Source of the DNA: Myxococcota bacterium
Lineage (GTDB): Bacteria; Myxococcota_A; UBA9042; DTJE01
DNA length: 33,854 nucleotides
Assembly: GCA_017994695.1 (NCBI GenBank)
Contig: JAGOKF010000040.1
Location: 1 to 33,854 of the forward strand
Direction of reading: 5' to 3'
Of the stretch, positions 11,969 to 33,854 are shown piece after piece. The notes under the pieces are model-generated. The model was given only the letters and a program-made list of their open reading frames with translations, searched no databases and was not told where the DNA came from. The position numbers were made by a program, and so were the translations under genes. How positions within the stretch are numbered: position 1 is the stretch's first letter; each line of letters starts with the position of its first letter.

Positions 11969-13936
11969 ATGGCGGAATCTCGGCGATGGCGGATCGGGAC
12001 GGCGATCCTCGCCGCGACGTTCCTGGCGTCCTGGGGCTGCGACGCGGACCCGGACGACGGGCCGCTGGCACCGGAGGAGGAGATGTTCGCCCCGCTGTCC
12101 GAGCGGGATCCCCTCTGGGAAGGGGCCCCGGCGGCCGACGGGCTCCCAGAGGAAGGCAAGGCCGACGCGGTCTATCCAAAGCAGTTCGACCTGCTGCAGT
12201 GGCAGTCCCCGGTGCGCAACCAGGCCCGTCGGGGGGTCTGCTCGATCTTCGCCACGGTGGCCCTGATGGAGCACCTCTACCTCCGGGAGGGGACCATCCC
12301 GAACCCGGACTTCTCGGAGCAGTACCTCCAGTGGTCCGTGAAGACCGAGGTGGGAGCCTTCCGGGAGGAGGAGGGTTCCAACGCCTCGAACAACCTGGAG
12401 GCGATCTCCCGGTACGGCATCCCCTTCGAGTCGGCCTGGCCCTACGAGACCTCCCCCTGGACGGCCTCCAACGACGCCCGCTGCACCGGGGAGAAGCGCC
12501 CGACAGTCTGCTGGACCAACGGCGATCCCCCCGAGGCGGCCCGGAAGGCCCCGAAGTTCCGGCTGCCCCGGGGGCGCTACGTGAACCCCTCCGAGCGGTC
12601 CATCAAGGCCGTGTTGTCGGAGAAGCGCATCGGCGTGGTGGCGGGGCTGGACTTCTTCTACCAGGCCTGGAACCACGGCGCATCGGACCTGCCGGTGAAC
12701 CGGGGCTATTTCAGCGAGGGATACGTCCTCTACCCCAACGAGGCGGACCAGGAGGCCAGCCGCAAGAAGCCCGCGGGCCACGCGATCCTGCTGGTGGGAT
12801 GGGACGACGACCTGGAGGTTCCGATCCTGGACGGCCAGGGCAATCCGGTCCTGGGGAGCGACGGGAAGCCGAAGACCGAAAAGGGCTTCTTCCTGTTCAA
12901 GAACTCCTGGGGAACCGGCGGGTTCGGCATCCGGAACCGCTTCGGCCCGGGCTACGGGTGGATCTCGTACCGCTACGTCCGGGAGTTCGGAAACGTGTAC
13001 ACCTCCGACGTGCCGAAACTGGACCTGATGGAGGACTGCGGGAACCGGATCGACGACGACTACGACGGGGCGACGGACTGCGACGACCCCTCGTGCAGGG
13101 ACCATGCGTCGTGCCGCCCGGCGGGAAGCCGGTGGGAGAACACCTCGGCGCTGCCCATTCCCGACAACGGCACCGCGGTGTCCTCGGAGATCCGGGTCCC
13201 GGTCGAGGGCACCGTCGCCAAGGCCTTCGTGACGGTGGACATCCGGCACACCTACATCGGGGACCTGGTCGTGGCGCTGGTCTCCCCGGGAGGCCGGCGA
13301 GTGGTGCTCCACGACCGCCAGGGCGGCGGGGACGACGACCTGCGCACCACCTGGACCGTGGACGGCATGGCCGGCGAGGCGGCCCGGGGCGCCTGGAGGC
13401 TCGAGGTGACCGACAAGGCCCGGGCCGATACCGGGACCCTGACGTCCTGGGCCCTGGAACTCCAGGTGGAGGGCACGGTGCCCCCCGAGGTCTGCGACGA
13501 CGGGGTGGACAACGACGGGCGCAACGGGGCCGACTGCGCCGATCCGGCCTGCGCGGCCTTCCCGGCCTGCGGGAGCACCCGGAAGGTGACCCGCCAGGAC
13601 GCCCCGGACCTGCCGATCCCCGACGGAAAGGCCAGCGGGCTGCTCCGGGAGATCGACATCCCCGAGGACGGCACCCTGGTCGCCCTGGCCGTCGCGGTGG
13701 ACATCCGCCACCCCTACCGGGGGGACCTGCGGATCCGGCTGATGGGCCCCGACGGGCAGATCGCAACCCTCCTGGACCAGCAGGGGGACGACCAGGACGA
13801 CGTGGTGGAGACCTGGCATCCGACCCTCTGGGACGGAAAGGGCGTCCGGGGGACCTGGATGCTGGAGGTCGCGGACTTGAACTCCCTGGACCAGGGCCGA
13901 CTGAAGTCCTGGACCTTCGAGGCGACGGTGCGCTGA
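11969..13936 (+). CDS. Secreted papain-family (C1) protease with two P/Homo-B domains
   Basis: A 655-residue secreted or lipid-anchored cysteine protease. The signal region (TAILAATFLASWGC) could be lipidated at C24, though the lipobox is imperfect. The C1 catalytic domain spans about 70-345: oxyanion Gln in RNQARRGVCSIFAT with nucleophile C91, H271 in AGHAILLVGW and N312 in KNSWG. Residues 357-376 form a MopE-like linker (CGNRIDDDYDGATDCDDPSC). A P/Homo-B jelly-roll follows (about 388-500: LPIPDN, RHTYIGDLVVAL, LHDRQGG, TGTLTSWALEL), then a second linker (about 509-534) and a second P domain (about 545-655). P domains usually accompany subtilisin-like or metalloproteases, so pairing with a C1 protease is unusual. 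A substantial pro-region is not obvious. A strong promoter and Shine-Dalgarno precede it, and the next gene begins 19 nt downstream. Confidence 0.9.
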   Translation: MAESRRWRIGTAILAATFLASWGCDADPDDGPLAPEEEMFAPLSERDPLWEGAPAADGLPEEGKADAVYPKQFDLLQWQSPVRNQARRGVCSIFATVALMEHLYLREGTIPNPDFSEQYLQWSVKTEVGAFREEEGSNASNNLEAISRYGIPFESAWPYETSPWTASNDARCTGEKRPTVCWTNGDPPEAARKAPKFRLPRGRYVNPSERSIKAVLSEKRIGVVAGLDFFYQAWNHGASDLPVNRGYFSEGYVLYPNEADQEASRKKPAGHAILLVGWDDDLEVPILDGQGNPVLGSDGKPKTEKGFFLFKNSWGTGGFGIRNRFGPGYGWISYRYVREFGNVYTSDVPKLDLMEDCGNRIDDDYDGATDCDDPSCRDHASCRPAGSRWENTSALPIPDNGTAVSSEIRVPVEGTVAKAFVTVDIRHTYIGDLVVALVSPGGRRVVLHDRQGGGDDDLRTTWTVDGMAGEAARGAWRLEVTDKARADTGTLTSWALELQVEGTVPPEVCDDGVDNDGRNGADCADPACAAFPACGSTRKVTRQDAPDLPIPDGKASGLLREIDIPEDGTLVALAVAVDIRHPYRGDLRIRLMGPDGQIATLLDQQGDDQDDVVETWHPTLWDGKGVRGTWMLEVADLNSLDQGRLKSWTFEATVR

Positions 13937-13955: not shown

Positions 13956-16472
13956 ATGCGGCGGCATGGTCGGGCAACGGTCCAGGAAGGCTTCGCCGCC
14001 GGGGCAGGCGGACTGCTCCCGGTCCTGGTCCTCTCCCTGGCGGCCGGGTGTGCCGGTGGAACCCGGGAGGTCCCGCCCAGGCTGCTTCCCATCCCGGCCC
14101 AGCGGACCGCGGTGGGCCGGACCCTGACCGTGGACCTGTCCGTCGAGAACCCCTCGGGGCTCCCGTTGACCTTCTCCTGGACCGGACCGGATCTCCCGGG
14201 CATGGCCGAGTCGGTGCACCTCTCGGCGACACCCTTCGGGGCCCGCTTCCTGTACACCCCCCTGGCCAGCCACACCGGCGACCAGGCCTTCGAGGTCCGC
14301 GTGGTCTCCCGGGCCGGGGAGGACCGGCAGGCATTCGTGGTCACCGTGGCGCCCGACGACACGACGGCCCCGTCGTTCCTGCGCCCGGGACCCGGGGCCA
14401 CCTTCGACCTTTCCCGGGAATCCTGCGTCCGGGTGGACGTCGAGGTCCGGGACGAGGACAGCCGGCAGGTGACGCTGGCCGCCACGGGGGACGTCCCACC
14501 CTCGGCGGAGTTCGTCCAGACGGGTCCCAAGACCGGGGAGTGGACCTGGTGCCCCGGAGCGGCCGAACTGGACCGGTCCCTGCAATGGCGGTTCTTCTTC
14601 GAGGCGGACGACGGGGACCATCCCCCGGTACGGCAGCCCTTCCTGGCCGTCCTGCTGCGACCCGGCAAGGACGACTGCCCCGGGAGCGCCCCGGAGGTCG
14701 CCTTCCTGTCCCCCGGGAAGGGGGAACGGGTCGCGTCGGTGACCGGGTATCCCGTCGCCATCCGGGTCACGGACGACCAGGGACTGCGGGATCCCCCGGC
14801 GGTGCTCTGGATGCGCGGGGAGCCCGAGGACACGGACCACCCGGACTTGGGGGAGTTCCAGGCGCTGTCGGTCCTGGCCGAGGGGGACCGGTTCGTCGCC
14901 CGGGTGCCGCACCTGGGCCTCGCCCCGGGGGCCGAGGAGGTCGTGTCGCTGCTGGTCGTCGCGACGGACAACGACGACGCCTCGGGGACCGCCTGCGACC
15001 ACCGGACCGTGTCCCGGGTCCACCGCTTCCTGGCGGTGGGGGGCGATTTTTCCCGGGACGCGGGAGGGACCTGCTCCCCCTGCGACCTCGCCGAGGCCTG
15101 CCATTCGGGGGTCTGCCTCCGGGGCGCCCTGGAGGGCCGATGCGTGCCTGCCTGCCCGGCCGATTGCCCCGACGGTCGGACCTGCGCCCGGGCAACGGCC
15201 CTGGACGGACGATCCGCCTCCGTCTGCGAGTCCCTCGAGGCCCTCTGTCCCTCGGAGGCCGGGCCTTCGTCCTGCGCCGACGACCCCGACGAGCCCGACG
15301 ACGGCATCGATCGGGCAGCCGCCTGGGACCTTGCCCCACGGGATCGCCGGATGTGCCCGGAAGACCGGGACTGGATGCGCCTTTCCGTCCCGGGCCCCGG
15401 GTGGCTGACCCTGTCCCTGCGCCCCGTCGCCTGGGAATCGGGGGACGCGGACCTGGTCCTGCGGGATGGACGCGGCCAGCAGCGGGCCATCGCCGCCGCG
15501 AACGGCCCCTCCGAGGACCTCCGGTTCTGCACCGACGCCGCCTCGGACTGGTTCGTCGAGGTGGCCGGCAACGCCGAGGCCCGGGGCTCCTGGCGGATCG
15601 CGGGGACCTTCCAGGGGGGATCCTGCTGCCAGGACGACCCCTTCGAGCCCGACGGCGGACCCGACGAGGCCCGTCCGCTCCCCTTCCCGGGCCTCGGGGA
15701 GGGGGTGATCTGCCCCTACGACAGCGACTGGTTCCGCCTGGAGGTGCCGTCGGTGGCGACGGTCGAGGTGACCCTGGTGTCGGAGGACCGGGGAGTGGAC
15801 CTGGACCTCCAGGTCTTCGGGCCGGCGGGAACCCTGGTGGCCTTCGGGGATGCCCTCGGGGACGAGACCATCGCCTGGGATGCCCGGCCGGGGACCCACT
15901 GGATCCGGGTCTTCGGCTACCAGGGGCACACCGACGCCTACCTGGTCGAAACGGACCTCTCCCCGGCCCCGTCCTGCGGCACCGATCGGGACTGCCCCCT
16001 GGGGACCTCCTGCTGGGACCGGTCCTGCGGCGAGTCCTTCTGCCGGAACGACGCCGACTGCCCCGGTGGGTCGGCCTGCCCGTTCCCAGGCCCCGGGGCC
16101 CTGGCGAGCCTCTGCGGCGCTCCTTGCACGAAGAACGCCGACTGCCGGGACGGAGAGGCCTGCAAGGCCTTCCCGGAGGGACGGTTCTGTGGCATCAAGG
16201 GAAGCGGTGCCAACGGCGACGCCTGCGACACGTTCCTGGACTGCGGCGGCCAGCGGGCCTGCCTCCCCTGGCCGGGGGGCTGCTGCGCCCGGGCCGGATG
16301 CCGCGGCCACGGGGACTGCGAGGGAGGAACCTGGTGCGTGGTTGTCCGGGAAACGCCCGCCTGCCTGCCTTCCTGCGATCCGGCCACGCCGGCCTGCCGC
16401 CAGTCCGAGGGCTATTCCTGCCGGGCCGTCCCCGACGGGGACGGGATCGATCGATGGGTCTGCGTCCCGTGA
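13956..16472 (+). CDS. Cys-rich lipoprotein with Ig-like and PPC domains
   Basis: An 838-residue predicted outer-surface lipoprotein. The lipobox LSLAAGC is good (C32). Residues about 40-130 resemble a cadherin/Ig-like repeat (ALPLTFSW-type turn as GLPLTFSWTGP, then GARFLYTPLASHTGD). Further beta-rich segments reach about 360. A Cys-rich patch (about 370-440) is followed by two pre-peptidase C-terminal (PPC) domains (about 443-555 and 560-668). Each opens DDP-xEPD, contains DxDW(M/F)RL and ends in an aromatic-rich strand. The last 170 residues hold CxxDxDCPxGxxC-type knots as in myxobacterial surface proteins. No catalytic motif is visible. It may be a substrate, chaperone or adhesin partner of the flanking proteases. 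The following gene overlaps its end. Confidence 0.82.
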   Translation: MRRHGRATVQEGFAAGAGGLLPVLVLSLAAGCAGGTREVPPRLLPIPAQRTAVGRTLTVDLSVENPSGLPLTFSWTGPDLPGMAESVHLSATPFGARFLYTPLASHTGDQAFEVRVVSRAGEDRQAFVVTVAPDDTTAPSFLRPGPGATFDLSRESCVRVDVEVRDEDSRQVTLAATGDVPPSAEFVQTGPKTGEWTWCPGAAELDRSLQWRFFFEADDGDHPPVRQPFLAVLLRPGKDDCPGSAPEVAFLSPGKGERVASVTGYPVAIRVTDDQGLRDPPAVLWMRGEPEDTDHPDLGEFQALSVLAEGDRFVARVPHLGLAPGAEEVVSLLVVATDNDDASGTACDHRTVSRVHRFLAVGGDFSRDAGGTCSPCDLAEACHSGVCLRGALEGRCVPACPADCPDGRTCARATALDGRSASVCESLEALCPSEAGPSSCADDPDEPDDGIDRAAAWDLAPRDRRMCPEDRDWMRLSVPGPGWLTLSLRPVAWESGDADLVLRDGRGQQRAIAAANGPSEDLRFCTDAASDWFVEVAGNAEARGSWRIAGTFQGGSCCQDDPFEPDGGPDEARPLPFPGLGEGVICPYDSDWFRLEVPSVATVEVTLVSEDRGVDLDLQVFGPAGTLVAFGDALGDETIAWDARPGTHWIRVFGYQGHTDAYLVETDLSPAPSCGTDRDCPLGTSCWDRSCGESFCRNDADCPGGSACPFPGPGALASLCGAPCTKNADCRDGEACKAFPEGRFCGIKGSGANGDACDTFLDCGGQRACLPWPGGCCARAGCRGHGDCEGGTWCVVVRETPACLPSCDPATPACRQSEGYSCRAVPDGDGIDRWVCVP

Positions 16473-19668: not shown

Positions 19669-20847
19669 ATGCTGAACATCGCGCTGTTCGGACCCCCGGG
19701 GGCCGGCAAGGGAACCCAGGCCGCCAGGCTGGTGGAGCGCTACCGCCTCCACTACATCTCCTCGGGGGACCTGCTCCGCCAGGAGATCCAGGAAGGCACC
19801 GACATCGGGATGGCCGTCAAGGACGTCATCGGCAAGGGAGGCCTGGTCTCCGACGAGATGATCGTCCGGCTCCTGGAGAAGACCATCCGGAAGATCCGGG
19901 AGCAGACCCCTGCCCAGGGCTTCCTCTTCGACGGCTTCCCCCGGACCTTCGTCCAGGCCTACATCCTGGAAGGCCTGCTGCTGAAGATGCACACCTCCCT
20001 GATGAACCTCTTCAGCATCGAGGTGCCCCCGGAGGTCTGCGCCCGGCGGCTCCTGGGCCGGGCCGAGGTCTCGGGGCGCACCGACGACACCCGGGAGGTG
20101 ATCGATTTCCGCCTGCGGGAATACGCCGAGAAGACCGCCCCGGTGCTGGGCTTCTACCAGGAGAAGGGCATCCTGGTCCCGGTGGACGGCACCCGGTCGG
20201 TGGACGAGGTCTTCGACCAGATCACCCGGGTCGTGGACCAGTCCCTGCGGCAGGTCCACCTGAACGTGGTGGTCCTCGGGGCTCCCGGGTCCGGGCGGAG
20301 CACCCAGGCGAAGCGCATCGCCGGCCAGTACAACCTGCACTACATCAACACCACGGACCTGCTCCGGGAGGTCGCCGGCCGCCCCGACGCCCAGGGACGG
20401 ATGGTCGCGTCGCTGATGGAGGAGGGGGCCCTGGTCCCCGACGAGATCGTGATCCGGGCCGTCGAGGGCTACATCCGGTCCCATCCGGACAAGAACGGAC
20501 TGATCTTCAAAGGGTTCCCCCGGACGCTGGTCCAGGCCTACATCCTGGACGGGCTGATGCGCAAGATCGGCCAGCGGGTGTCGTGCATCCTGGACCTGCG
20601 GGTCCCGACGCTGGAGCTCTTCCGGCGGCTGTCGGCCCGGGGGGCCAGCGAACGGGCCCTGCCCTACGACCAGGCCACCGAGGGGATCGTGCGGCGCATC
20701 GAGGCCCACGAGCGCCACGCCCCGGACATCCTGAGCTACTTCCAGAAGAGCCGTCGCCTCCACGTGATCGACGGCCTGGGGACGCCGGACGAGGTCTTCG
20801 AGCGGATGTCCGCCCGGGTGGAGGAGGCCTTCCGCCAGGCCCGCTGA
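19669..20847 (+). CDS. adk: Tandem adenylate kinase with degenerate second domain
   Basis: A 392-residue protein made of two adenylate-kinase domains. The first (1 to about 195) looks active: P-loop GPPGAGKGTQ with K14, AMP site SSGDLLR and DGFPRT, and a short lid with R131 and R137/DD. It should interconvert AMP + ATP and 2 ADP. The second (about 197-392) keeps the fold but has GAPGSGRSTQ, in which the P-loop Lys is Arg (R210). SGDLLR is NTTDLLR, and DGFPRT is KGFPRT. It is therefore probably inactive or altered. Both halves share FPRT-x-VQAYIL-x-GL, absent from typical Adk as far as I recall, so the tandem likely arose by internal duplication in this lineage. Ordinary Adk is about 190-215 residues. 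The gene has its own promoter and converges on the M24 gene. Confidence 0.88.
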   Translation: MLNIALFGPPGAGKGTQAARLVERYRLHYISSGDLLRQEIQEGTDIGMAVKDVIGKGGLVSDEMIVRLLEKTIRKIREQTPAQGFLFDGFPRTFVQAYILEGLLLKMHTSLMNLFSIEVPPEVCARRLLGRAEVSGRTDDTREVIDFRLREYAEKTAPVLGFYQEKGILVPVDGTRSVDEVFDQITRVVDQSLRQVHLNVVVLGAPGSGRSTQAKRIAGQYNLHYINTTDLLREVAGRPDAQGRMVASLMEEGALVPDEIVIRAVEGYIRSHPDKNGLIFKGFPRTLVQAYILDGLMRKIGQRVSCILDLRVPTLELFRRLSARGASERALPYDQATEGIVRRIEAHERHAPDILSYFQKSRRLHVIDGLGTPDEVFERMSARVEEAFRQAR

Positions 20848-26333: not shown

Positions 26334-27706
26334 AGACGACCCCGCGGATCGGGATCATCGGCGGCGGGATGATGGGCCTGGCGATGGCCCACCGCCTGGC
26401 GGGCACCGGGGCCCGGGTCACCGTGATCGAGGCCGCGGCCGAGCCCGGGGGCCTGGCGGCCCCCTGGACCATCGGGGACGTGACCTGGGACCGGCACTAC
26501 CACGTCATCCTGGCCTCGGACCGGACCCTGCGAAGGCTCCTGGCGGAGGTCGGCCTGGACGGGACCATCCGCTGGGGCACCACCCGGACGGGGGTCTTCG
26601 GGGGCGGACGCCTCCACTCGATGTCCAACACGCTGGAATACCTGTCGTTCCCGCTGCTGTCGCCGCTGGACAAGGCCCGCCTGGGCCTGACCATCCTGGC
26701 CGCCGATCGCATCCACGACGGCCTGGCGATGGAGCAGGTCCCGGTGGAGGACTGGCTGGTCCGCTGGTCGGGACGCCGGACCTGGGAACGCTTCTGGCTG
26801 CCCCTGCTCCGGAGCAAACTGGGCGAGAACTGGAAGCGGACCTCGGCGGCCTTCATCTGGGCCACCATCCGGCGTCTCCACGCCGCCCGGGACGCGGGCC
26901 TGGAACGGGAGCGCTTCGGCTACGTCCCCGGAGGGTACGCCCGGATCCTCCGTCGCCTCGCGGAGGCGCTGGCCCGGGAGGGCGTGCAGATGCGCCTTTC
27001 CTGCCCCGTCCGCCGGGTCTCCTCGGCGGGGGGGCGGCCGAAGGTCCACTTCCCCGACGGCCGCACCGAGTCCTTCGACACCGTGGTGGTGACCCTGGCG
27101 GCGCCCCTGGCGGCCCGGCTCCTCCCCGACCTGCCCCCCGAACCGGCGAGGCGCATGGCCGAGGTTCCCTACCAGGGGATCGTCTGCGCCTCCCTGCTCC
27201 TCCGGCGGCCCCTCTCGGGCTTCTACGTCACGAACCTGCTGGATCCGTTCCCCTTCACCGGCATCATCGAGATGACGGCCCTGGTGCCCCCGGAGGAGAT
27301 GGGCGGCCGGCACCTCGTCTATCTTCCCCGGTACGTTCCCTCGGACGACCCCTTCCTGCGGGTGCCCGACGACGCCGTCCGGAGGGAGTTCCTCCAGGGT
27401 CTCCGGCAGGTCCACCCGGACCTCCGGGAGGACGACGTCGAGGCCTTCCGGGTCAGCCGCGTCTCCCACGTGATGGCCATCCCGACCCTCGGGGCCTCCT
27501 CGCGCCTGCCGCCGATCCGCACCCCGCTCCCGGGCGTCTATGCCGCCGGGTCCGCCCACATCGTCCACGGCACCCTGAACGTCGAGGAGACGGTTCGGCT
27601 GGCCGAGCGGGTCGCCCGGGCCCTTCCCCACCCGGACGCCTTCGGGGACGACGGCCTGCCCCGCGAACCCCGGTCATCCCCTCCTGGACAAGGAGACCCT
27701 CCATGA
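26330..27706 (+). CDS. FAD/NAD(P)-dependent amine-oxidase-like oxidoreductase
   Basis: A 458-residue flavoprotein of the amine oxidase/protoporphyrinogen oxidase-like superfamily. The dinucleotide fold is clear: GIIGGGMMGLAMAHRLAGTG with the acidic end VIEAAAEPGG, and a C-terminal FAD contact in GVYAAGSAHIVHGTLNVEETV. The central part (LPLLRSKLGENWKRTSAAFIW) is substrate-binding in this family. Such genes recur in glycan loci and some relatives are UDP-galactopyranose mutases, but I do not see enough to claim that activity. It overlaps both neighbours by 4 nt, so it works with the fusion GT2 and the next deacetylase. Confidence 0.85.
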   Translation: MKTTPRIGIIGGGMMGLAMAHRLAGTGARVTVIEAAAEPGGLAAPWTIGDVTWDRHYHVILASDRTLRRLLAEVGLDGTIRWGTTRTGVFGGGRLHSMSNTLEYLSFPLLSPLDKARLGLTILAADRIHDGLAMEQVPVEDWLVRWSGRRTWERFWLPLLRSKLGENWKRTSAAFIWATIRRLHAARDAGLERERFGYVPGGYARILRRLAEALAREGVQMRLSCPVRRVSSAGGRPKVHFPDGRTESFDTVVVTLAAPLAARLLPDLPPEPARRMAEVPYQGIVCASLLLRRPLSGFYVTNLLDPFPFTGIIEMTALVPPEEMGGRHLVYLPRYVPSDDPFLRVPDDAVRREFLQGLRQVHPDLREDDVEAFRVSRVSHVMAIPTLGASSRLPPIRTPLPGVYAAGSAHIVHGTLNVEETVRLAERVARALPHPDAFGDDGLPREPRSSPPGQGDPP

Positions 27707-28686
27707 AGCCCCCTGCGAGCCTCTCCCTGGACCTGGACAACCTCTGGTCCTACATGAAGGTCCACAACGACCCCGGCTGGGAGTCCTTCCCGACCTACCT
27801 CCCCGACGCGGTCCCGAAGATTTTGGACCTGCTGGAAGGCCTGGACCTGCGCCTGACCTTCTTCCTGGTGGGCCAGGACGCCGCGAAGCCCGAGAACGCC
27901 CAGGCGATGCGCCGGATCGCCGACTCGGCCCACGAGGTCGGCAACCACTCCTTCTTCCATGAGCCCTGGCTGCACCGCTATTCCCCGGCCCAGGTCGAGG
28001 AGGAGATCGCCCGGGCCGAGGAGGCGATCCTCCAGGCCACCGGCCGGCGACCCGAGGGCTTCCGGGGCCCGGGATACAGCCTGTCGGCCACCGTGATCCG
28101 GGTGCTGTCGGACCGGGGCTACCGCTACGACGCCTCCACCTTCCCGACCTTCCTGGGACCCGCCGCCCGGGCCTACTACTTCATGACCTCCCGCCTGGGC
28201 ACCAGGGAACGGGACGAGCGGGGAGCCCTCTTCGGGACCCTCCGGGACGGGCTGCGGCCCCTGACCCCCTACCGGTGGCGCCTGCCCGGCGGCCCCGGAC
28301 TGATCGAGGTCCCCGTGACGGTGATCCCGGCGGTCCGGATTCCCTTCCACCTGACCTACGTCCTCTATCTCTCCACCTTCTCGAAGGCCGCGGCCCGCCT
28401 CTATTTCCAGTCGGCGATGCAGGCCTGCCGGGCCTTCGGGGTGGAACCGTCGCTGCTCCTGCACCCCCTGGACTTCCTGGGGGGGGACGAGGCCCCGGGC
28501 CTGGCCTTCTTCCCCGGCATGAACCTCCCGGGGGAGGAGAAGCGCCGCCGCACCCGGCAGTACCTGGCCGACTTCGGGGCGACCTTCGACGTGCAGCCGA
28601 TGGGGGCCTACGTCCGGATCCTCGAGGGCCGCCCGGCCCTGCCCGTCCGGGATCCGGACTTCCCCCCCTCCCGGGAGTCCCCATGA
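27703..28686 (+). CDS. Polysaccharide deacetylase (NodB fold), motifs intact
   Basis: A 327-residue NodB-fold (CE4-like) protein with no signal peptide. Motif 1 is LSLDLDN (D10, D12), motif 2 is HEVGNHSFFH (H82, H86), and motif 3 is GFRGPGYS (R121). LLLHPLDFL supplies the late His. Metal-binding and catalytic positions therefore look complete, in contrast to the fused domain two genes upstream. It should remove N-acetyl (or another acyl) group from a sugar or lipid-linked sugar on the cytoplasmic side. CAAGGAGACCCTCC precedes the ATG. Both ends are 4-nt overlaps. Confidence 0.9.
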   Translation: MKPPASLSLDLDNLWSYMKVHNDPGWESFPTYLPDAVPKILDLLEGLDLRLTFFLVGQDAAKPENAQAMRRIADSAHEVGNHSFFHEPWLHRYSPAQVEEEIARAEEAILQATGRRPEGFRGPGYSLSATVIRVLSDRGYRYDASTFPTFLGPAARAYYFMTSRLGTRERDERGALFGTLRDGLRPLTPYRWRLPGGPGLIEVPVTVIPAVRIPFHLTYVLYLSTFSKAAARLYFQSAMQACRAFGVEPSLLLHPLDFLGGDEAPGLAFFPGMNLPGEEKRRRTRQYLADFGATFDVQPMGAYVRILEGRPALPVRDPDFPPSRESP

Positions 28687-30206
28687 GACCCCTGCCGAGA
28701 CTCCCCGGGTGGGTCCCCTGGGCGGCCTCGATGGCGGCGCTGCTGGCCATCCAGTTCCTCTGCTGGGGCACCCCCGTCCCCGCGGGCAACGAGGACCACT
28801 ACCTGGCGGTGCTGCGGCGGGTCGCCGACCCGTCCTTCCTGGCCGGGGACTGGACCTTCGGGCCCCGCCTGCCGGACCGCTGGGTCTTCGACACCCTGTT
28901 CGGGCACCTGGCTCGGTGGATCCCCCTGGAGGCCCTGGGATGGACCGGGCGAATCGCCACGTGGGTGGCCTCCCTGGCGGGCCTGGTCCGGATCGCCCGG
29001 GTCCTGGGCCTCGGAGCCGCCGGGACCACCGGGGCCCTGGGCCTGTTCCTGCTGCTGGGCCAGGCCCTGGTGGGCGGCGAGTGGATGCTCGGCTGGTTCG
29101 AGGCCAAGGCAGTGGCCTGGAGCCTGTGGCTGCACGGCACGGCCGACGTGCTCGGGGGACGGCGTTCCCGGGGGGCGCTGCTGGCGGGCCTGGCGGCGGT
29201 CTTCCACCCGGCGGTGGGCCTGGTGGCCGGGGCGGCCCTGGCGACGGCCATGCTGGCCACCGTCCGACCCTTGCGGTCGCTGGTCCGCCCCGCCGCGATC
29301 GGGAGCGCCGCGGCCCTGCCCGGACTGGCCCAGGCCCTGGCGATGATGGCCGCGTCGGGGGAGTCCTCCCCCGGGGACTGGGAGTTTCTGGCCCGGACCT
29401 TCCTGCGCATCCACCTGGACGCCTCGACCTTCGACCGCACCCTGGTGCTGGCCACCGGCATCGCGGCGGCCCTCGTCCTGTGGGAGGCCCGGCGCCATCC
29501 CCGCCAGGGTGCCTGGCGCCTCGCCCCGTGGCTGCTGGCCCTTCCGGGAGCCCTGTTCCTGGCGGGATGGGTGGCCGACCGGCTGGAGGCCTGGTCCCTG
29601 ATGGCCCTGACCCCCTACCGGATCCTCCCTCCCCTCGCCCTGCTGCTCGGCTGCCTGTCCGGGGCCTCCCTCCTCCGGCAACCCGACCCGGTGACCCGGC
29701 TGCGGGGAGGGCTGCTGCTGGCCGCCGCCTTCCTCCTCTGCCTGCCCCCCCTGCCCTGGCTGGTCCGGGACCGGCTGGCGGAATTCCGGTCGGCCTGGAA
29801 CTCCCCCGGGGATCCCTGGCAGGAGGCCTTCGACTGGGTCGCCGCCCACACCCCGGAGGACGCCCTGGTGCTGGCCCCACCCTGGCGGGGCGACGCGGCC
29901 CTCCGGATGCGCCGTCCCCAGGTGGTCCACGCGGCGATGCCCCGCTACGACCGCCTAGCCGAGTGGCACCGGCGGGTCGCCGACCTCCTGGGCGAGGACC
30001 TCCCGGACCGCCAGACCCGGGACCTGGGAGAGGTCTGGCGGAGGGCGAAGGCCCGGTGGGCCGTGATGCCCCCGTCCCGGGTCTCGGACCTGGCCGCCCG
30101 GTACGGCGCCGCCTTCATCGTCACTGACGCCCCCCTGCCCGGCACCCCGGCCTTCCGGTCCGGTCCCGTGGCGGTCCATGCCCTTCCCCTGGGCTCCGCT
30201 CCCTGA
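28683..30206 (+). CDS. Multi-pass membrane protein, GT-C/DUF6798-like
   Basis: A 507-residue protein with roughly ten hydrophobic segments across residues 10-360 and a soluble C-terminal domain (about 370-507, QEAFDWVAAHTPEDALVLAPPW). The early loop GNEDHYLAVLRRVADPSFLAGDW, with WMLGWFEAKAVAW and FHPAVGLVAG, recalls GT-C-like proteins annotated as DUF6798. No defined lipid-linked sugar transferase motif is certain. It is the last gene of its operon. It may add a sugar from a polyprenyl-phosphate donor on the periplasmic side, which would suit the GT2 fusion upstream as donor maker; that link is inference. Confidence 0.75.
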   Translation: MRPLPRLPGWVPWAASMAALLAIQFLCWGTPVPAGNEDHYLAVLRRVADPSFLAGDWTFGPRLPDRWVFDTLFGHLARWIPLEALGWTGRIATWVASLAGLVRIARVLGLGAAGTTGALGLFLLLGQALVGGEWMLGWFEAKAVAWSLWLHGTADVLGGRRSRGALLAGLAAVFHPAVGLVAGAALATAMLATVRPLRSLVRPAAIGSAAALPGLAQALAMMAASGESSPGDWEFLARTFLRIHLDASTFDRTLVLATGIAAALVLWEARRHPRQGAWRLAPWLLALPGALFLAGWVADRLEAWSLMALTPYRILPPLALLLGCLSGASLLRQPDPVTRLRGGLLLAAAFLLCLPPLPWLVRDRLAEFRSAWNSPGDPWQEAFDWVAAHTPEDALVLAPPWRGDAALRMRRPQVVHAAMPRYDRLAEWHRRVADLLGEDLPDRQTRDLGEVWRRAKARWAVMPPSRVSDLAARYGAAFIVTDAPLPGTPAFRSGPVAVHALPLGSAP

Positions 30207-30403: not shown

Positions 30404-31522
30404 ATGCTGTTCGCCGCACTCGCCCGGAGAGTCCGCGTCCGGAAGATGCGCCGGTCCGTGCCGCCGATGCCCGGACTGCTGCCCCAGGAGGAGTTCCACC
30501 GGCTGCTGGCCCGGGAGCGGTCCCGGGCCGACCGGAACTCCCATCCCTTCTCGATGGTGCAGTTCTCCACCTCGGACCTCCCGCCGGACCGCCTCCGGAA
30601 GGTCGCCCGGATCCTGCTGGACCACCGGCGCCTGACCGACGACGTGGGCGTGGTCCGGGACCTGGACCTGGGGACCGTGCTGCCGGACACCTCCGCCGAG
30701 GGAGCCCGGATCTACGCGGAACGGATCCACGGCGCCCTGCAGCGGCGGGGCTTCGACGTCGGGCACCGCATCTTCACCTACCCCGGCAACTTCGGTCCCG
30801 AGGCCCTGGAACTCCACCCGCCGCGACCCGGGGATTCCCAGGAAGCCGGAGGCGACCGGGAGGAGGCCCAGGCATCGCCTGCGACCGCCCGTGCCGAGAA
30901 CATGGAGACCTGGTTCCTCCAGCCGCTCCCGTGGTGGAAGCGGGCGATGGACGTCGTGATCTCCTCGGCCGCGCTGCTGATCCTGGCCCCGGTGATGGCC
31001 ACGGTGGCGGTAATCGTGAAGGCCACGAGCCCCGGGCCCGTGCTGTTCCGCCAGCAGCGGGCCGGGAGGGGGGGACGCCCCTTCACCTTCTACAAGTTCC
31101 GCACGATGGTGGTGAACGCCGAGGAACTGAAGGAGAAGTTGCGGCAGAACAGCGAGGTGGAGGGCCCGGTGTTCAAGATGGCCCGGGACCCCCGGATCAC
31201 CCCCGTGGGCCGCTGGCTCCGCCGCCTGTCCCTGGACGAACTCCCCCAGTTGTGGAACGTCCTGCGGGGCGACATGTCCCTGGTCGGTCCCCGGCCGCCG
31301 ACGCTGGACGAGGTGCAGAAGTACGCCCCGTGGCAGCGCCAGCGCCTGTGGCTGACCGGCGGGATCACCGGCATCTGGCAGACCAGCGGCCGCCACGAGG
31401 TGGGCTTCGTCGAGTGGATGCGGATGGATGCCCGGTACGCCCGGCGGCGGTCCTTCTGGATGGACGTGCGGCTGCTGGCCCGGACGGTCACCGCGGTGCT
31501 GACCACCCGGGGCGCCTCCTGA
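30404..31522 (+). CDS. Initiating sugar-phosphate transferase with degenerate GGDEF domain
   Basis: A 372-residue protein. Residues about 24-125 align with a GGDEF domain: EEFHRLLARERSRADRNSHPF at the start, then RRLTDDVGVVRDLDLGTVLP and AEGARIYAERIHGAL. The GGDEF signature is replaced by RDLDL (85-89), so it cannot be an ordinary diguanylate cyclase. After a linker (about 135-175) comes one membrane helix (about 184-206) and the polyprenyl-phosphate sugar-1-phosphate transferase domain: KRAMDVVIS, KFRTMVVNAE, RWLRRLSLDELPQLWNV (D278/E279), GDMSLVGPRP. It starts glycan assembly on undecaprenyl phosphate. The usual WbaP-type N-terminal helices are absent. ATG 30404 has GGGGGAAG nearby; the in-frame ATG 30302 lacks a ribosome site and would add Arg/Gly-rich sequence. 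Confidence 0.88.
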   Translation: MLFAALARRVRVRKMRRSVPPMPGLLPQEEFHRLLARERSRADRNSHPFSMVQFSTSDLPPDRLRKVARILLDHRRLTDDVGVVRDLDLGTVLPDTSAEGARIYAERIHGALQRRGFDVGHRIFTYPGNFGPEALELHPPRPGDSQEAGGDREEAQASPATARAENMETWFLQPLPWWKRAMDVVISSAALLILAPVMATVAVIVKATSPGPVLFRQQRAGRGGRPFTFYKFRTMVVNAEELKEKLRQNSEVEGPVFKMARDPRITPVGRWLRRLSLDELPQLWNVLRGDMSLVGPRPPTLDEVQKYAPWQRQRLWLTGGITGIWQTSGRHEVGFVEWMRMDARYARRRSFWMDVRLLARTVTAVLTTRGAS

Positions 31523-31573: not shown

Positions 31574-33298
31574 TCACGCCGACAGGGCCTTGCGGACCAG
31601 CCGCGACTGGAAATCTTCCCAGGCGGGGACCGGATCGGGAGCCACGGGATCGGCCAGCACGCACCCGGTCGAACAGGTCCGGGCCAGGGCCTGCACCTCC
31701 GGGTAGCGCACCTCCTCGAAGGGCGTCGCAGCGTAGCGGGCGTTCAGGAAGTCGCACAGGCCCCGGACCTCCCGGGCGACCCCCCGCTCGACGGCCCGGA
31801 AGCCGCCGACCACGGCCTCCACCAGTCCCTCGGGCGGCGCCTGCCTGCCGCGACCGATCCCGGTGTAGGCCAGGCCCCGGCCCTCCACCTCGTCCCGGGA
31901 GGCCAGGTTGCAGGCATCGACCACCCCGGCCAGGGTCGGCGCCCCCTCGTCCAGGATCGCGCATAGGTCCCGGCGATAGACCCCGTGGCCGGTGCAGAGA
32001 AAGACCGCCTCGGCGCCCTCCATCGCCCGGATCCGGTCCCGGTGGAACGCCCCGTCCAGCCCGCTGCGCACCAGGTTCTGGTCGCCCTGCCGGACGTAGG
32101 GGTCCGACAGCCGCACCTCGCAGCCCTTCCGCCGCAGCAGGTTCCCTAAGACCAGCGTCGGCGAGTTGCGGGTGTCCTCCGAGTCGAACCGGTAGGCGAC
32201 CCCCAGCAGGGCCACCCGGCGGCCGTCCAGGGGTCCCAGGACCCCTTCGGCCAGCCGGAGAGTCGCCTCGGGGGACTCGTCGTTGATCCGCCGGGACTCC
32301 AGGATCAGGCTCGCCTCCCCGGGGTCCCCCGACTCCAGCCGGCGCCACCACAGCAGGATCCCGTCCTTCGGCAGGCAGTGGCCCCCGACCCCGAGCGTCG
32401 GCACCAGCAGCCCGCCCACGGGGACCGCCGTGGGGTTCCGGGAGGCCTCGTCGGCCTGCCCCAGGACCTCGTTGACCCGGTCCCGGAGCCGGAAGAAGTC
32501 GATGTCCCGGGCGTCGCACCACCGGGCCACCTCGGCGGCGTAGGCGATGCGCACGTCCCGGTAGGCGTTCTCCAGCGTCTTCACCACCTCGGCGGTCATG
32601 CTGCTGGCAGGGTACAGCCGCCCCTCGGTCACGATGTGCCCGTAGAGGCGCTGGACCAGCCGGGGCGTCTCGGGATGCAGTCCGGCGACGATCTTGTCGC
32701 TGGTCCGCACCCGTTCCACCAGGCGGCCCGGCATCACCCGGTTGGGGCTGTTGCCCAGCAGCACGTCCCGGCCGTCCTCGAGCCCGAACCGCCGGAAGTG
32801 GTCCCGGATCACGGTGGCCATCGTCGAGGGGGCCAGCGTGGACTCGAAGATCACCAGGGGGACCTGCCCCTCGGGCCTCGCCGCCAGGGTCGCGGCCAGG
32901 CCCTCCAGGGCCTCCATCAGCGGTCCGTAGTCCGGTTCCCGGCCCTTCTTGTCCGTCTGGACGCAGACCAGCACCACGTCTGCATCCCGAAGGTCCTCCA
33001 CGCGGTGGCTCGCCGACAGCAGGCCCTCCCGGACCCCCTCGGCGACCACCCGGTCCAGGTCCGGCTCGACGCCCCCGATGGGCGATTCCCCCCGGTTGAT
33101 CGCCCCGACCTTCCACCCGGAGGTCGGGGAGTCCCGCTGGACCACTACCACCCGGGCCGGGGCCTCGCCGCCGATCCGGACCCGGGCGTGGGCCAGCAGC
33201 GCCGCCATGGGCATCCCCACGATCCCCGGCCCGATCACCCCGATCTTCCGGACTTCCCACCGGGCCACGGTTCCCTCGCTCGTCCACTGCAGCGGCAT
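31574..33298 (-). CDS. UDP-sugar dehydrogenase (UDP-Glc/GDP-Man DH family), C-terminally extended
   Basis: A 574-residue NAD-dependent four-electron dehydrogenase that oxidises a UDP-hexose or UDP-HexNAc to the uronic acid. The NAD fold is GVIGPGIVGMP (about 20-30). The middle domain has AEVVKTLENAYRD (K240, N244) and the catalytic Cys C308 in GVGGHCLPKD. The C-terminal UDP-binding domain includes GVAYRFDSEDTRNSP and VFLCTGHGVY. The GGHC form and the ENAYRDV helix favour a UDP-ManNAc/HexNAc dehydrogenase over UDP-glucose dehydrogenase. The family is normally about 430-450 residues; here about 90 extra residues (485-574, FLNARYAATPFEEVRYPE and later CSTGC) match nothing I know. It lies 10 nt after the AsnB-type gene. 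Confidence 0.88.
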   Translation of the reverse strand: MPLQWTSEGTVARWEVRKIGVIGPGIVGMPMAALLAHARVRIGGEAPARVVVVQRDSPTSGWKVGAINRGESPIGGVEPDLDRVVAEGVREGLLSASHRVEDLRDADVVLVCVQTDKKGREPDYGPLMEALEGLAATLAARPEGQVPLVIFESTLAPSTMATVIRDHFRRFGLEDGRDVLLGNSPNRVMPGRLVERVRTSDKIVAGLHPETPRLVQRLYGHIVTEGRLYPASSMTAEVVKTLENAYRDVRIAYAAEVARWCDARDIDFFRLRDRVNEVLGQADEASRNPTAVPVGGLLVPTLGVGGHCLPKDGILLWWRRLESGDPGEASLILESRRINDESPEATLRLAEGVLGPLDGRRVALLGVAYRFDSEDTRNSPTLVLGNLLRRKGCEVRLSDPYVRQGDQNLVRSGLDGAFHRDRIRAMEGAEAVFLCTGHGVYRRDLCAILDEGAPTLAGVVDACNLASRDEVEGRGLAYTGIGRGRQAPPEGLVEAVVGGFRAVERGVAREVRGLCDFLNARYAATPFEEVRYPEVQALARTCSTGCVLADPVAPDPVPAWEDFQSRLVRKALSA

Positions 33299-33308
33299 GT
33301 TCCCCCCG

Positions 33309-33854
33309 TCAACGGCCCGTTTCGGGCGCGTCCAGAAAGGTCTGGAACCACAGTTCCAGGTTCAGGATCCCCCACAACCGTCGCCCGAAGGCATGCTCCC
33401 GGTCCAGGAGCGCCTCGATGGCCGGGAGGTTCCACATTCCCCGGTCCCGGGCCGCCCGGGATAGCAGCACGTCCCGGAAGAAGTCCCGGACCGGCCCCCG
33501 GCGGGCCCACAGGTGCAGCGGCACCGGGAAGCCCTTCTTGTCCTTCCGGTTCCGCACGACCTCGGGGATCAGGTCCCCCGCGGCCGCCCGCAGGGCATAC
33601 TTCGGCTCGGCCCCCCGGAACTTCATCGCCGGCGGCATCGCGGCCACCAGGTCCACCAGGCGCCGGTCCAGCAGCGGCACCCGGGACTCCAGGGAATGGG
33701 CCATGCTGACCCGGTCCTCGACATGGAGCAGCGCCGGGAGCCCCGCCACCAGGTCGAAGTGGGTCATCTTGTTGATGTAGGACCGGGTGTCGGGATGGTG
33801 GAAGACCTTCTGGAACCGGGCGAAGGTCCCCTCGGGCTCCCAGGACGCCAGGAC
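33309..33854 (-). CDS. Asparagine-synthase-type amidotransferase (AsnB), C-terminal part
   Basis: The 3' end of a minus-strand gene that begins beyond the window; the frame is open to the last base (181 residues visible). SYINKMTHFDLVAGLPALLHVEDR, continuing SMAHSLESRVPLLD, is the conserved acceptor/synthetase part of AsnB-family enzymes. KYALRAAAGDLIP and RKDKKGFPVPLHLW are also typical. Family members in exopolysaccharide loci amidate sugar carboxylates or similar acids, which suits the adjacent UDP-uronate-forming dehydrogenase; true asparagine synthesis is the alternative. The glutaminase and PP-loop regions are outside the window. Confidence 0.88.
   Translation of the reverse strand, partial: VLASWEPEGTFARFQKVFHHPDTRSYINKMTHFDLVAGLPALLHVEDRVSMAHSLESRVPLLDRRLVDLVAAMPPAMKFRGAEPKYALRAAAGDLIPEVVRNRKDKKGFPVPLHLWARRGPVRDFFRDVLLSRAARDRGMWNLPAIEALLDREHAFGRRLWGILNLELWFQTFLDAPETGR

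Follow-up and report, generated by a model that had tools for sequence, protein, structure and literature searches.

A degenerate GGDEF-fold domain fused to an initiating phosphoglycosyl transferase in an exopolysaccharide locus: a candidate receptor for c-di-GMP

The fused gene and its locus

We analyzed a 33,854-nucleotide stretch of DNA from a Myxococcota bacterium (the window). Near its right end, one gene joins a GGDEF-like domain to a monotopic phosphoglycosyl transferase (PGT). The gene, its parts and its neighbors are listed below; residue numbers are those of the fused protein.

27703..28686, + strand: polysaccharide deacetylase (PF01522), a conserved neighbor
28683..30206, + strand: predicted membrane protein with a DUF6798 match, the conserved immediate upstream neighbor (start codon inferred)
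30404..31522, + strand: gene for the fused protein, 372 amino acids (GGDEF-like domain, linker and monotopic PGT)
30404..30457, + strand: residues 1-18, short basic helix with a net charge of +7 and zero acidic residues (modeled helix 2-14, pLDDT 61-69)
30464..30781, + strand: residues 21-126, degenerate GGDEF-fold domain (the N-domain), from the fold model and sequence profiles
30566..30586, + strand: residues 55-61, site of the cyclase metal/GTP loop DxDxFKxxNDxxGHxxGD, with Ser for the metal Asp and helix alpha-1 deleted
30629..30640, + strand: residues 76-79, RLTD, the inhibitory-site (I-site) RxxD motif, its R and D identical in 43/43 fused domains
30656..30670, + strand: residues 85-89, RDLDL instead of GG(D/E)EF
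30722..30724, + strand: residue R107, 28 residues past the I-site Asp, a spacing as in 3ign
30806..30883, + strand: residues 135-160, low-confidence linker (pLDDT about 50)
30890..30916, + strand: residues 163-171, short modeled strand and helix directly preceding the transferase
30932..31027, + strand: residues 177-208, hydrophobic transferase helix, a predicted monotopic membrane anchor (model and structural matches to PglC and WbaP)
30938..31501, + strand: residues 179-366, Bac_transf (PF02397) catalytic domain with an invariant Asp278-Glu279 dyad
31574..33298, - strand: UDP-glucose/GDP-mannose dehydrogenase family protein, a conserved convergent neighbor
33309..33854, - strand: asparagine synthase-like protein, a conserved neighbor cut by the end of the window

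The frame starts with ATG at 30404, ends with a stop codon at 31520-31522 and reads 372 amino acids. In two related loci (L009 and L010) the protein also starts with ML followed by a basic stretch, in agreement with the start codon, coordinates and reading in the initial annotation. The basic N-terminal helix recurs among close relatives and could possibly rest on the membrane. A sequencing or frame artefact was ruled out as the source of the fusion because full-length relatives have the same fusion.

The gene order was kept in L009 and L010: FAD oxidoreductase, polysaccharide deacetylase, membrane protein, fused transferase, convergent UDP-sugar dehydrogenase and asparagine synthase. We read the locus as one for exopolysaccharide, and from the type of enzyme we infer a pathway of the Wzx/Wzy type. 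The source genome has 15 GGDEF, 1 EAL and 14 PilZ matches, indicating that c-di-GMP signaling is present.

Several other features were noted in this DNA and genome. A 392-amino-acid open reading frame at 19669-20847 (+ strand of the window) has two PF00406 stretches, that is, a tandem double adenylate kinase. At 11969-13936 and 13956-16472 (+ strand) lie genes for a papain-like protease that has proprotein-convertase P-domains and, after it, a PPC-domain protein; both products are probably secreted. Elsewhere in the source genome there is another degenerate GGDEF domain (L130 1017-2501; G000:C76:5072-5476; E 1.9e-4), with RTMD at the I-site and without GGEEF.

The fusion was found beyond the source genome. 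Among the listed matches in 189 sampled genomes of its own phylum, those reaching well into the N-domain came only from its own family, of which a separate search yielded additional members. Matches extending into the N-domain were also found in about 15 of 392 sampled Planctomycetota genomes, to which the profile search added others, and the fusion was present in one Spirochaetales bin (L073). N-domain identity to counterparts in other phyla was 21-33%. We collected 41 fused open reading frames and built a tree of 175 transferase domains, which include those of the 41 fused proteins and that of L121. In L121 (G012:C136) the GGDEF-like and transferase parts are in different frames, unlike in its close relatives, probably because of a sequencing or assembly error. 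The transferase domains of 38 of the 41 fused proteins, plus L121, formed one clade of 39 (support 0.988), and the three others (L073, L198 and L199) formed a second clade. The fusion is thus ancient and stably maintained, having arisen once or twice or been passed on by transfer.

Some relatives differ from the window protein in their makeup. The source genome has a second, paralogous fusion of a GGDEF-like domain to a sugar transferase (L124 6059-7414; G000:C157:20316-21410). The linkers of L124, L093, L094, L119 and L125 have a conserved cysteine pattern, CGQxxCxGxC, that is absent from the window protein; the pattern suggests a metal site or a disulphide. A stand-alone GGDEF-like domain, a 145-residue frame without a transferase, adjoins a J-domain-like frame in another genome (L126 1136-1570; G004:C61).

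A GGDEF homolog that has lost its catalytic site

The N-domain gave only a trace in a search with the Pfam GGDEF model. The first 149 residues matched PF00990 with an E value of 0.19 and 11.9 bits, under the gathering cut-off of 23.8, and a GGDEF assignment therefore required independent tests.

We built a profile from 20 transferase-fused N-domains, L121 among them, that included no GGDEF proteins, and searched 7,464 open reading frames from the loci of relatives, which had been gathered by tblastn-type searches. This profile matched bona fide GGDEF domains with whole-sequence E values of 2e-17, 2e-16, 5e-12 and up to 1e-3. A profile of 12 domains matched solved GGDEF domains in the PDB (E 2.7e-13 and weaker). 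The best of these was 3ign, a diguanylate cyclase solved with c-di-GMP; PelD and PleD were matched weakly.

Structural models gave the same answer. In the full-length AlphaFold model, mean pLDDT was 92-97 over residues 21-120, and a model of the N-domain alone had a pLDDT of 93.2. The modeled elements are, in order, a helix (28-45), a strand (49-54), a helix (61-74), two strands (80-83 and 89-94), a helix (98-114) and a strand (121-126). The whole 114-residue model aligned to GGDEF chains with Z scores of 12-15 and an rmsd of 2-3 over 110-114 residues (6khu, 15.0; 3ign, 14.0; PleD and WspR, about 13). Foldseek agreed on the GGDEF fold, and PelD (4eu0, E 3e-4) was among its matches. In addition, the short strand and helix at residues 163-171 fall within the structural alignments to GGDEF domains. 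Judged by the model, they may complete the GGDEF sheet by packing against it.

By profile homology and predicted fold, we regard membership of the N-domain in the GGDEF superfamily as secure. Chance resemblance was ruled out by the GGDEF-free profile together with the structural matches, and the same evidence overturns a dismissal of the domain on its Pfam score alone. The initial annotation had described a GGDEF pattern from the first helix to AERIHGAL, and both correspondences were correct. It had also named, beforehand, two outcomes that would count against a GGDEF domain: a predicted structure of another fold, and homologs with an unrelated N-terminus. Structure prediction returned the GGDEF fold, and all 41 fused open reading frames keep the same N-domain.

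The residues needed for cyclase activity are gone. Helix alpha-1 and the loop DxDxFKxxNDxxGH were deleted in 43/43 fused domains, with the N, D, G and H columns of the metal/GTP loop gapped in every one. The metal Asp was kept in only 8 of the 43 and is Ser in the window protein. GG(D/E)EF was lost in all 43. Without the metal/GTP loop, and with RDLDL in place of GGEEF, the N-domain cannot be a diguanylate cyclase, and we ruled out an active cyclase on these grounds. Thus, the domain is dead, as had been proposed from the RDLDL loop; every fused homolog lacks the metal, GTP and GGEEF residues as a set. The initial annotation had overlooked that helix alpha-1 is deleted and that an intact RxxD lies just upstream of the signature loop.

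The transferase half is complete. PF02397 matched residues 179-366 (E 1.1e-65), and the Asp278-Glu279 dyad was invariant. This half structurally matched WbaP and PglC. It also matched the EpsZ model NF041877 (E 7.5e-78) and TIGR03025 (E 3.7e-83), the latter with 280.2 bits against a cut-off of 295.55 and only over model positions 256-444. By these models (TIGR03025, EpsZ and WbaP), its sequence places the transferase in the large-PGT lineage. The first about 255 positions of the large-PGT models were unmatched, and no transmembrane-like or hydrophobic stretch was found before residue 180 of the window protein. Because only the C-terminal part of these models was matched, the GGDEF-like domain occupies the place of the transmembrane bundle and cytoplasmic DUF, as the initial annotation had it when it spoke of a replaced membrane or CoA-binding-like N-terminus.

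The I-site motif and possible roles of the domain

In cyclases, and in receptors with a dead GGDEF domain, c-di-GMP is held at the I-site RxxD (PMC2170427). We compared 43 fused domains, which come from the family of the source genome, from Planctomycetota and from the one Spirochaetales bin, to intact cyclases, mostly from related genomes. RxxD (R76 and D79) was present in 43/43 fused domains and in 32/39 intact cyclases (Fisher p 0.004, a value that ignores relatedness). Nine intact cyclases of the same lineage share a set of invariant positions, of which only R44, R76, D79 and A101 persist in at least 90% of the 43 fused domains. Ordinary GGDEF domains often have RxxD as well, so structural needs may account for part of its retention. 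The initial annotation had suggested a c-di-GMP sensor or a dimerization domain as possible roles, and the invariant motif sharpens the first of these readings beyond what that annotation could tell.

Other candidate ligand residues are less uniform. The position of R107, which has the 3ign spacing from D79, was R in 7 and K in 9 of the 43 fused domains (R/K in 16/43), mostly in members of family f1, and was D in 11. Judged from its place in the sequence, R107 would serve as a third c-di-GMP ligand residue in the window protein. The position of R41, which we take to correspond to the PleD secondary-site residue R313 (PleD numbering), was R in 34/40 fused domains.

By analogy to PelD and BcsE, the most likely role of the dead GGDEF domain is that of a c-di-GMP receptor fused to the initiating enzyme, which it would regulate. 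We give this an even chance and no more, because binding is read from the motif and the third arginine varies. In such a receptor, c-di-GMP would be supplied by the many intact cyclases of the genome and would bind RxxD (R76 and D79), aided in the window protein by R107 and R41. The bound form would probably be an intercalated dimer able to link two chains. Binding would then alter the packing of the N-domain on the transferase, or the oligomeric state of the chains, through residues 163-171, which may couple the two halves of the protein. Transfer of sugar-1-phosphate to undecaprenyl phosphate would thereby be switched, most likely on at high c-di-GMP. The broader proposal is that this is a multi-phylum PGT family with a built-in c-di-GMP receptor that gates, in cis, the initial, lipid-linked step in the making of Wzx/Wzy-type exopolysaccharide. 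We hold that proposal tentatively, at somewhat worse than even odds.

The main rival is that the domain binds no ligand and is a structural or dimerization module replacing the cytoplasmic DUF of large PGTs, with R76 and D79 kept to hold the fold. The GGDEF-fold domain sits at the position of that DUF, which in WbaP forms most of the dimer interface (PMC12802240). Moreover, the third I-site residue varies, and the non-ligand positions E38, G82 and L93 are as invariant as RxxD in the fused domains. However, a purely structural role poorly explains a strict R and D at the I-site when 7/39 intact cyclases tolerate change there. We consider this explanation less likely than the receptor, although it is the strongest of the alternatives.

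It is less probable again that the domain has a different ligand, such as an alarmone, the NDP-sugar substrate or some other nucleotide, or that it responds to a partner protein, for instance a cyclase or another exopolysaccharide protein. The Asp at the R107 position in 11/43 relatives indicates that the pocket may differ between branches. But the GTP-binding A-site is deleted in every member, so that a nucleotide would have to bind at the face of the I-site or in some new pocket, and we identified no alternative ligand motif in the N-domain. A decaying remnant without function, to which the low identity to counterparts in other phyla (21-33%) might point, is very improbable: 43 domains keep the layout, the invariant R/D/G/L set and the fusion over two to three phyla, which decay would not do.

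If the c-di-GMP receptor reading is correct, the messenger may directly control the enzyme by which undecaprenyl phosphate is committed to polysaccharide. This would be a direct control point, and one distinct from the c-di-GMP control of synthase-dependent systems. The N-domain would in addition provide a soluble sensor amenable to assays on its own, both in a cyclase-rich lineage and in Planctomycetota. To our knowledge, polysaccharide regulation in Planctomycetota has been little studied.

Comparison with known systems

Receptors with a dead GGDEF domain are already known from the control of polysaccharides, and small PGTs that carry extra regulatory domains have been mentioned before. A literature search, incomplete in coverage, found no description of a GGDEF domain fused to a PGT, Bac_transf or sugar transferase, and we do not claim priority.

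Among receptors, a close parallel is PelD, in which the RxxD motif of a degenerate GGDEF domain binds c-di-GMP and which depends on c-di-GMP for production of Pel (PMC2170427, PMC8461298). Like the N-domain of the fused protein, PelD has a dead GGDEF fold that has lost its signature motif and kept RxxD, and it is linked to an exopolysaccharide. In contrast, PelD is a membrane protein in its own right, of GAF-GGDEF architecture, and acts on a synthase complex, whereas the domain in the window is fused in cis to an initiating PGT. PelD also needs a third I-site arginine, R402 (PMC2170427), whose equivalent, the R107 position, is not conserved across the fused family. The degenerate GGDEF-like domain of BcsE, a regulator of cellulose, has been reported to use an I-site for c-di-GMP binding (PMC8461298). 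This domain too is catalytically dead, but BcsE is a separate regulator of a synthase-dependent pathway and is not fused to an enzyme.

Among transferases, the large PGTs EpsZ, WbaP and WcaJ (NF041877, TIGR03022, TIGR03023 and TIGR03025) have a catalytic domain of the same lineage as that of the window protein. Unlike them, the window protein has no transmembrane bundle and no DUF, and has the GGDEF-like domain there instead. Small monotopic PGTs of the PglC type (fold matches 8e37 and 8g1n, Z about 19) have a single membrane helix, as here, but PglC lacks a regulatory domain. Other small PGTs are reported to carry extra regulatory domains, for example receiver domains (PMC12802240). EpsZ itself, an initiating PGT, is activated by a bound regulator, the single-domain response regulator EpsW (PMC12802240). 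EpsW and EpsZ resemble our proposal in that the first step of polysaccharide synthesis is controlled post-translationally. EpsW, however, is a separate receiver-domain protein that works in trans and is not a fused GGDEF fold.
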